A DNA stretch of 64,000 nucleotides from Diaminobutyricimonas aerilata. Lineage in GTDB: Bacteria > Actinomycetota > Actinomycetes > Actinomycetales > Microbacteriaceae. Where the stretch lies: assembly GCF_002797715.1 (NCBI RefSeq), contig NZ_PGFF01000001.1:1635304-1699303 (forward strand), in the 5' to 3' direction. Shown here piece by piece: positions 52,293 through 57,089 of the stretch; the first letter of the stretch is position 1; every line of letters starts with the position of its first letter. The position numbers were made by a program, and so were the translations under genes. The notes beneath the pieces were generated by a model. It was not told the DNA's origin, did no database searches, and saw nothing but the letters and a program-made list of their open reading frames with translations.

Positions 52293-52483
52293 GACCGGTC
52301 CAATCGCGTGAGGTCGGCGTCCGATCGGTGAGTCCCGGCGCCTGGCCAGCGACGATACCCGCGCTCGCGCGGCGTCCCGTGCGCCAAAGGTCCCAAACCA
52401 CGATCCGCACCCCCGAATTGGGGGCGCTGTCCGAGAGACGGAGCGCCGGCGTCCCGCCCTCGGCGTGTCGCCCCCGCGCGGCG

Positions 52484-52512
52484 TACACTTCCTCTATCGA
52501 ACACATGTTCGA
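52484..52512 (+). promoter_or_regulatory. SOS (LexA) box over the start of transcription
   Basis: TCGAAC-ACAT-GTTCGA at 52497-52512 is a perfect palindromic match to the Gram-positive/actinobacterial LexA operator. TACACT at 52484-52489 is placed as the -10 box, putting the transcription start at about 52496, directly at the operator. Confidence 0.8.
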
Positions 52513-52524
52513 ATGGAGGTAGCC

Positions 52525-52785
52525 GTGGAACCCGTCGCTCTCGCCCTCGTCGACGACGTGCCGACCGCACTCACCTGGCGCGACAAACGGTTCCGGGTGG
52601 CGGACAGCCCGACCCGATTGAGCCGCCCCGCCGACTGGTTCTACGACGCCGTCATCACACATCCGCCCGTCCCCGCGATCCGTTGGCGGTTCGTGGGGCG
52701 CGCCGACGACGGAGAATCGCGGGTGTTCGATGTGCGCTACGACCTCGTGAGCGCCCGATGGGAGCTCGTGCGCGCGTTCGAGTGA
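52525..52785 (+). CDS. Small SOS-controlled protein, DUF6504-like
   Basis: An 86-residue protein. The pattern P-x-A-L-T-W-R-D-K-R-F-R-V followed by W-F-Y-D-A and D-V-R-Y-D-L-V-S-A-R-W-E-L-V-R-A-F-E resembles DUF6504 proteins, which are often found near translesion polymerase (ImuB/DnaE2) genes. It is controlled by a LexA box 12 bp upstream and has GGAGG 5 nt before the GTG. No polymerase of the ImuB or DnaE2 type is next to it here. Role in mutagenic repair is inferred. Confidence 0.7.
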   Translation: MEPVALALVDDVPTALTWRDKRFRVADSPTRLSRPADWFYDAVITHPPVPAIRWRFVGRADDGESRVFDVRYDLVSARWELVRAFE

Positions 52786-55457: not shown

Positions 55458-57089
55458 ATGTACATCGTGCTCGAGCGCCGTCCCGACGGGGGCGTGCTCG
55501 CGCACCACACGGACGACGGCGGCCGCGTGACAACGACGGACGCGGTGCGGGAGGGCGACCTCGCGACCTACGTGTCGAGCCGCGAGCCCGGCGACACCCG
55601 ATGGGTGTGGCACGACACCGCCGCCTGGTACCCGCGCCTGCTCGCCGCCGGCGTGCGGGTCGAGCGGTGCCACGACCTTCGGCTCGCGCACGTCATCCTG
55701 CGCTCCTCGCTGTTCACCGCGCACACCTCGATCGCTGCCGCGCCGAGTTCCGGCTGGGACCGGCTCGCGGGAGCCGCCGCGGTGGACCTCGATGCCTTGT
55801 TCGACGTCGAGCAGCGCGACGACCTCGATCCGGTCGCCGAGTTCGCGTTGCAGCGCGAAGCGGTCACCGGCTCCGATGCGCGCATCGGCCGCCTCGTGAA
55901 CGCGGAGTCGGCGGGCGCTCTCGTCGCCGCCGAGATGACGCACGCCGGACTGCCGTGGCGAGCGGATGCCCACGACGCGTTGCTCGCGGCGGCGCTCGGT
56001 CCACGCCCGCGGCACGGTGAACGCCCAGCGGAACTGGAGCGCCTCGCCGATGAGGTGCGTCGCGCGCTCGACGCGCCCGACCTCAACCCGGATTCCCCGC
56101 CGGAACTCGTGCGCGCCCTCCGCCGCGCGGGGATCACCGTCGACTCGACGCGCTCGCACGAGTTGAAGCGCATCGAGCACCCGGTCATCCCGCCGCTGCT
56201 CGAGTTCAAGAAACTCGCGCGCCTGCACACCGCGAACGGCTGGCACTGGCTCGACACCTGGGTGCGTGACGGGCGATTCCGTCCGGTGTACGTTCCCGGC
56301 GGTGTCGTGACCGGCCGATGGGCCTCGAACGGCGGGGGAGCGCTGCAGCTTCCCGCGCAGGTGCGTTCCGCCGTGATCGCCGACCCGGGGTGGAAGCTCG
56401 TCGTCGCCGATGCCGCCCAGCTCGAGCCCCGGGTGCTCGCCGGGATGTCGGCCGATACCGCAATGGCGACGGCCGCGCGCGCGAGCGACCTCTACCAGGC
56501 CATGGTCGACAGCGGGGCGGTGCAGACGCGCGAGCAGGCGAAGTACGGCATCCTCGGCGCGATCTACGGCGGCACCCGGGGCGAGAGCGGCCGGATGTTG
56601 CCCCGCATCACCCGCGCGTATCCGCGCGCGATGGCCCTCGTCGAAGACGCGGCCCGGGCGGGCGAGCGCGGCGAGCGGGTGCGCACCTGGCTCGGCCGCA
56701 CGTCGCCTCTTCCCGGCGAGGCCATGGTGACATCGACGGACGAACCGGATGCGGTGGACCGCGCGGCCCAGGGGCGCGCACGCGCGTGGGGTCGGTTCAC
56801 CCGCAACTTCGTGGTGCAGGGCACCGCGGCCGAATGGGCGTTGCACTGGATGGCGACCCTGCGCATCCGGCTCTGGGAGCTCGGCGACGGACGACTCGAG
56901 GAACGACCGCACCTGGCGTTCTTCCTGCACGACGAAGTCGTCGTGCATACGCCGGAGGCGTCGGCCGAGCGGGTCGCCGAGACGATCCGCGAGTGCGCCG
57001 CGGAGGCGGGCCGGTTGCTGTTCGGCTCGTTCCCGATCGAGTTCCCGCTGAGCGTCGCCATCGTCGACGACTACGGGCAGGCCAAGTGA
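55458..57089 (+). CDS. Family-A DNA polymerase with 3'-5' exonuclease-like N-terminus
   Basis: A 543-residue protein. The C-terminal ~330 residues are a Pol I-type polymerase: motif A VVADAAQLEPRVLAG near residue 315 (the usual DYSQIELR has A-A for Y-S, keeping the metal Asp), motif B with K-Y-G-I-L-G-A-I-Y-G-G near 360, and motif C F-L-H-D-E-V-V near 490. The N-terminal ~200 residues align in place of an exonuclease domain, but the acidic catalytic set is not evident. It is much shorter than PolA (no 5' nuclease). It is a second family-A polymerase of unknown role. Confidence 0.88.
   Translation: MYIVLERRPDGGVLAHHTDDGGRVTTTDAVREGDLATYVSSREPGDTRWVWHDTAAWYPRLLAAGVRVERCHDLRLAHVILRSSLFTAHTSIAAAPSSGWDRLAGAAAVDLDALFDVEQRDDLDPVAEFALQREAVTGSDARIGRLVNAESAGALVAAEMTHAGLPWRADAHDALLAAALGPRPRHGERPAELERLADEVRRALDAPDLNPDSPPELVRALRRAGITVDSTRSHELKRIEHPVIPPLLEFKKLARLHTANGWHWLDTWVRDGRFRPVYVPGGVVTGRWASNGGGALQLPAQVRSAVIADPGWKLVVADAAQLEPRVLAGMSADTAMATAARASDLYQAMVDSGAVQTREQAKYGILGAIYGGTRGESGRMLPRITRAYPRAMALVEDAARAGERGERVRTWLGRTSPLPGEAMVTSTDEPDAVDRAAQGRARAWGRFTRNFVVQGTAAEWALHWMATLRIRLWELGDGRLEERPHLAFFLHDEVVVHTPEASAERVAETIRECAAEAGRLLFGSFPIEFPLSVAIVDDYGQAK

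Follow-up and report, generated by a model that had tools for sequence, protein, structure and literature searches.

What does a gene for a protein of only 86 residues do behind a perfect SOS box when no translesion polymerase gene stands beside it? This is the question raised by a locus in the genome of Diaminobutyricimonas aerilata, studied here within a stretch of 64,000 nucleotides (the window). The answer favoured here, with somewhat more confidence than doubt, is that the product would be an ImuB-C-type adaptor, free and repressed by LexA, that serves an error-prone polymerase in trans.

A perfect SOS box before a solitary gene

The gene and its control region comprise the following features (window coordinates).

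52460..52465, + strand, -35-like hexamer TCGGCG (TTGGCG in many relatives), seen in the sequence 18 nt upstream of the -10
52462..52470, + strand, conserved element GGCGTGTCG, 35 nt upstream of the SOS box and shared with the promoters of relatives
52484..52489, + strand, putative -10 TACACT, seen in the sequence; a TAnnnT is similarly placed in most relatives
52497..52512, + strand, SOS (LexA) box, the perfect palindrome TCGAACACATGTTCGA, identified by sequence, genome count and conservation in relatives
52515..52519, + strand, probable ribosome-binding site GGAGG, seen in the sequence 5 nt upstream of the GTG
52525..52785 (stop included), + strand, 86-codon gene with a GTG start for a standalone ImuB-C/DUF6504-like protein, supported by profile comparisons and dN/dS

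The box begins after a gap of 7 nt from TACACT and overlaps the predicted transcription start of the gene. TCGAACACATGTTCGA is the sole SOS-box match without mismatch in the window; matches with up to two mismatches numbered 18, against 4.59 expected from shuffles, so that within the window the perfect match alone is telling. The whole genome (3,494,536 bases, one contig) contains five perfect TCGAAC-N4-GTTCGA sites, and the same pattern read backward occurs nowhere in it. The earlier note had described a perfect box at the predicted start with TACACT upstream, and the sequence, the genome count and all 41 copies of the gene considered below bear this out; the genome-wide count and the conservation in 41/41 copies rule out a box arisen by chance. 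A generic sigma-70 scan called no promoter upstream of the gene, and the putative -10 therefore rests on inspection by eye and on the relatives.

The other four perfect boxes lie at these genome positions.

1794523, before imuA', at the start of the imuA'-imuB-dnaE2 cassette
2523502, at an AlkB-like 2OG-Fe(II) oxygenase gene (Pfam match)
663671, near an unassigned unit
852530, apparently within a coding region

The AlkB-like gene (L042 1785-2510, - strand) has its box at the gene start. The imuA'-imuB-dnaE2 cassette, in which ImuB and DnaE2 were labelled from family matches and imuA' from its position only, lies about 106 kb from the orphan gene and has its own perfect box. The search for imuB and dnaE2 in the same genome thus located both at a distance, in agreement with the statement that no translesion polymerase gene is adjacent.

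Relationship of the protein to ImuB-C

Against the Pfam model DUF6504 (PF20114) the window protein scored 16.7 bits (E 0.0089), under the curated cut-off of 24.2; nine of 29 relatives matched at E <= 0.1 and one at E <= 4e-5. The family profile and standalone DUF6504 proteins aligned along their whole length, 88 columns, at 95.5% (E 1.4e-8), and a second such comparison gave 94.9%. The resemblance to DUF6504 that had been suggested from the letters is real but distant: judged by its sequence, the protein is DUF6504-like and distantly related, and it is no PF20114 member by the curated threshold.

The supposed association of this family with translesion polymerases also held. Two alphaproteobacterial ImuB proteins matched DUF6504 over cut-off, at residues 430-504 and 437-512 respectively; plasmid records label them 'DUF6504 family protein', next to an 'error-prone DNA polymerase'. 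Standalone copies, moreover, precede DnaE genes (see below). DUF6504 at the C-terminus of alphaproteobacterial ImuB is the published ImuB-C domain (Aravind et al., 2013). According to the available text of that paper, the superfamily is mainly beta-strand and has a conserved Trp close to the C-terminus together with two or more conserved basic residues (PMC3765255). Among 29 orphan-family sequences eight residues are invariant; with regard to the ImuB-C traits, W79 and R55 are invariant and R22 is conserved in at least 90%. The window protein appears to fit the wider ImuB-C superfamily. It shares its domain family with the ImuB C-terminal domain via PF20114; unlike that domain, it is not fused to a Y-family core, and compared directly with the ImuB C-terminus of the same bacterial family, the orphan family shows weak similarity (31%, 17 columns). 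A PF20114 search of the genome's own ImuB gave no match.

The product is predicted to be a small all-beta protein. Its model, for which the alignment consisted of 39 standalone DUF6504 homologues from named genomes, contains strands only (mean pLDDT 86.1). The model of a standalone DUF6504 protein (mean pLDDT 79.6) has the same strand order, its third and fourth long strands being separated by a variable insert. Neither model matched a PDB fold at E <= 0.001, which does not show that the fold is new; the best VIA-align hit reached Z 6.4 over 54 residues, below the level that VIA-align calls telling. No solved relatives were found by sequence search, no match in BFVD at E <= 0.001, and no phage relatives in 50,697 phage records or in PHROGs.

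Standalone ImuB-C genes beside polymerase genes

Standalone ImuB-C proteins beside polymerase genes are already known. The available text of a 2026 study describes DnaE2B-[ImuB-C] and DnaE2B-[ImuB-C]-PolY modules of Actinobacteria, in which the DnaE2B-linked ImuB-C comes from genomes without ImuA/ImuB (PMC12926913); standalone ImuB-C is also treated in accessible parts of PMC6511836. In D. deserti, as far as the available text goes, a small standalone ImuB-C of 80 residues is SOS-controlled and operonic with imuY and dnaE2, and measurements there covered induction dependent on RecA and mutagenesis dependent on ImuY/DnaE2 (PMC8072749). In Streptomyces venezuelae, dnaE2 and dinP are listed in the accessible text as members of the LexA damage regulon (PMC9380542).

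DUF6504 matches occurred in 120 of 296 genomes of the class. At all of the best 30 actinomycete places an SOS box with 0-1 mismatch (26 perfect) was found 34-277 nt upstream of the match, and at 26 of these best 30 a DnaE-like gene occurred within the short locus. Larger stretches had the order ImuB-C, DnaE, often a Y-family polymerase and sometimes a SAV_6107 HEPN gene. Two further canonical loci, L077 and L079, had no box by the exact pattern. The linked DnaE proteins scored 650 and 612 bits against the NCBIfam error-prone polymerase model (cut-off 939), compared with 1444 for the genome's own DnaE2, and thus differ from it; they are called DnaE2B-like here by a name borrowed from PMC12926913, not from placement on the tree of that paper.

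Within the window's own bacterial family, 18 weaker copies were examined; within 300 nt, 13 of them show a box of 0-2 mismatches and one (L287) a box with three; no box was found within that distance at L278, L283, L290 and L291, the last of which is probably no homologue. Nine of the weaker copies (L275, L276, L277, L282, L285, L286, L287, L288 and L289) immediately precede a DnaE2B-like gene that is 40-47% identical to a Nocardioides counterpart, eight having a box of 0-2 mismatches and one a box with three. These nine copies come from eight genomes, seven of which have no ImuB. In sequence the L275 protein falls between the orphan and DnaE2B types, and a low-resolution tree attaches it basally to the DnaE2B-linked rows; as this tree was built from 95 columns and leaves 43 of 80 inner forks open, its broad grouping alone was used. 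L280 and L281 are DnaE2B-type ImuB-C relatives without a DnaE gene within 4 kb; both have an APP1-domain phosphatase gene and an SRAP gene nearby, and L281 also a HipA-like gene.

The orphan protein resembles those of the published DnaE2B-[ImuB-C] modules in being small and all-beta as predicted, in having an upstream SOS box and in aligning over its full length; theirs, however, occur with a polymerase gene in genomes without ImuA/ImuB, whereas here the gene stands alone and ImuB is present in most carriers. The D. deserti protein is likewise small and standalone, and it is under the SOS control that is predicted for the orphan, but its gene belongs to an operon and its system has been measured.

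The orphan branch in Microbacteriaceae

With the window protein as query, matches at E <= 0.001 were found in 41 of 149 related genomes. A profile of 29 sequences matched in 49 of the 149, and 47 of these belong to the 90 genomes of the window's family (Microbacteriaceae-like), leaving no match in 43/90. The 47 were split by score, after the list had been seen, into 38 strong and nine weak. The strong genomes yielded 41 orphan copies (the window gene, 37 others and three second copies), among which the weaker copies are not counted.

An upstream SOS box with 0-2 mismatches was present in 41/41 copies (27 perfect, 10 with one mismatch and four with two); in the control region, 180 nt downstream of the stop, a two-mismatch box occurred in 2/41. 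Eight pairs of relatives gave dN/dS values of 0.20-0.47; the two pairs that include the window gene itself gave 0.32 and 0.76, their synonymous sites being highly diverged. These sequence comparisons indicate that the orphan gene is under purifying selection. They bear on the idea that the gene is a relic without present function, the small subunit that remained when an ImuB-C-DnaE2B operon was lost. The presence of DnaE2B-linked relatives in the same family, the lack of a conserved neighbour and the 43 family genomes without a match would agree with such an origin; the box kept in every copy, the dN/dS values of the eight pairs and the eight invariant residues argue against it and make it quite improbable.

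No neighbouring gene family is shared by most of the 41 orphan loci, the commonest besides the gene itself occurring at 5/41. No DnaE2B-type polymerase gene was found near the window gene or around the 40 other copies. Two copies (L252, and L266, the second copy of G028) lie directly upstream of imuA'-imuB-dnaE2. A family-A bifunctional 3'-5' exonuclease/DNA polymerase gene lies 2.7 kb downstream of the window gene (55458-57089, + strand; NCBIfam PRK14975.1-1, 738 bits); it was rejected as a partner, this family being near only 3/41 orphan loci, the window included. A plasmid of Gryllotalpicola protaetiae (Microbacteriaceae) carries a homologue with 33% identity, annotated as hypothetical (L225 4986-5246), with a one-mismatch SOS box just upstream of its start and a divergent SRAP gene near it.

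Literature searches combining Microbacteriaceae, LexA and SOS box found nothing, and no mention of DUF6504 was found either. The available text of PMC12926913 makes no mention of Microbacteriaceae. Among the article passages covered by the search, no orphan ImuB-C outside polymerase operons was found in ImuB-bearing genomes. The part for which no earlier description was found is thus the orphan branch, preceded by SOS boxes and present mostly in ImuB-bearing genomes of the window's family.

Partner polymerase and proposed role

ImuB was present in 35 of the 38 strong carrier genomes; among the family's other 52 genomes it occurred in 28 (p = 6.7e-5), and among the eight DnaE2B-linked genomes in one (Fisher p = 1.7e-5 against the orphan carriers, G077 being counted in both groups); both tests use raw genome counts, uncorrected for phylogeny or genome size. 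The three remaining carriers (G005, G035 and G087) have no ImuB and no DnaE2 match at E <= 1e-100. Since such carriers exist, the imu-cassette DnaE2 cannot be the sole partner.

A Y-family polymerase (DinB/Pol IV) might be the partner instead of DnaE2, as reported for standalone ImuB-C in Geobacter and Clostridia. A DinB-type gene scored far over cut-off in 8/8 genomes checked, including the three carriers without ImuB; being present in all eight, however, it says little about partnership. No dinB was found near the 40 orphan copies searched, and the weak dinB matches at L252 and L266 are ImuB itself. A Y-family partner is accordingly considered unlikely.

Under the reading of an adaptor acting in trans, LexA would keep the orphan gene off and DNA damage would turn on its production. 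The free ImuB-C-type protein would then dock on an error-prone DnaE2-type polymerase, in the manner of AlphaFold models (2026) in which, according to the available text, ImuB-C binds the PHP domain of DnaE2 and ImuA (PMC12926913), and would supply the mutagenic polymerase with an additional, diffusible adaptor or modulator. The ancestral protein most probably acted next to a DnaE2B-type polymerase, and the orphan lineages, which mostly carry ImuB-DnaE2 instead, would have kept the small subunit. The suggestion of a detached part of a mutagenic repair system, made in the earlier note, fits this picture, as DUF6504 belongs to translesion systems and no translesion polymerase gene is adjacent.

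ImuB-C was first proposed as a damage-recognition (DNA-binding) domain (Aravind et al., 2013; PMC3765255, available text), and the orphan might act in this way without a polymerase. SRAP genes near three orphan copies (L229, L257 and L267), besides the one on the Gryllotalpicola plasmid, are in line with such a role. They accompany few copies, however, and the docking of ImuB-C on DnaE2 in the 2026 models, as presented in the accessible text (PMC12926913), points elsewhere; action in damage recognition alone is held to be very improbable.

A free domain alone behind an SOS box, mostly alongside full-length ImuB, amounts to a natural experiment. The orphan gene can be removed without touching the polymerase operon, which makes the role of ImuB-C directly testable.

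A second promoter element

The element GGCGTGTCG occurs exactly in 22/41 orphan promoters (L229-L268 and the window), mostly 34-37 nt upstream of the SOS box, and in 8/30 imuB-locus promoters (L195-L224), mostly as the reverse complement and at a similar distance from the box, against a background of 31/4583 windows; some imuB-locus boxes (L199, L201, L207, L214 and L218) are at odd distances and may not belong to imuA' promoters. In 20 genomes with both an orphan and an imuB locus, the element was found with 0-1 mismatch at both in nine, at the orphan only in two, at imuB only in two and at neither in seven (p = 0.022). As it was spotted by eye before counting, the shared element counts as a lead, one pointing to a second input that the orphan promoter would have in common with the imu cassette. 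The related TTGGCGTGTC occurs with 0-1 mismatch in 23/41 orphan copies. In the own genome, TTGGCGTGTC-N14-TAnnnT with up to two mismatches was not enriched (six and zero sites by strand, compared with two and 11 in the backward control), and the window site is the best match to it, with one mismatch.

A common promoter element suggests joint expression with the imuB locus, and together with the joint presence of ImuB and the free protein in most carriers it would suit a brake, in which the free domain competes with the ImuB C-terminus for DnaE2 and restrains or terminates mutagenic synthesis once SOS has been induced. The profile of the free protein, however, is closer to the DnaE2B partners than to the ImuB C-terminus, and carriers without ImuB exist, so that a brake is judged rather improbable. 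A more ambitious extension of the adaptor reading is possible, though doubtful: most carriers might operate a mutasome that contains ImuB-C twice, as a tethered module within ImuB and as a free one, co-switched by LexA and GGCGTGTCG, in which the free module, descended from a DnaE2B partner, would be an in-trans, dosage-set governor or exchange factor of DnaE2 that sets SOS mutagenicity.

Control by PafBC was considered with TGTCRGTG-N8-TAnnnT, which is taken here to be the PafBC motif. The strict motif precedes 9/30 canonical DUF6504 genes and 4/11 same-family relatives of the DnaE2B-linked type, and it was found in 0/29 imuB-locus promoters and 0/41 orphan promoters; the looser TGTCRGYG occurs in 16/29 imuB-locus promoters (background 2/6040 for the strict and 80/6040 for the loose form). 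Given the 0/41, no claim of PafBC control is made for the orphan. Promoters of standalone DUF6504-dnaE loci (L043-L072 and L275-L289) often join TTGACG, a PafBC-like TGTCGGTG-N8-TAnnnT and a LexA box.
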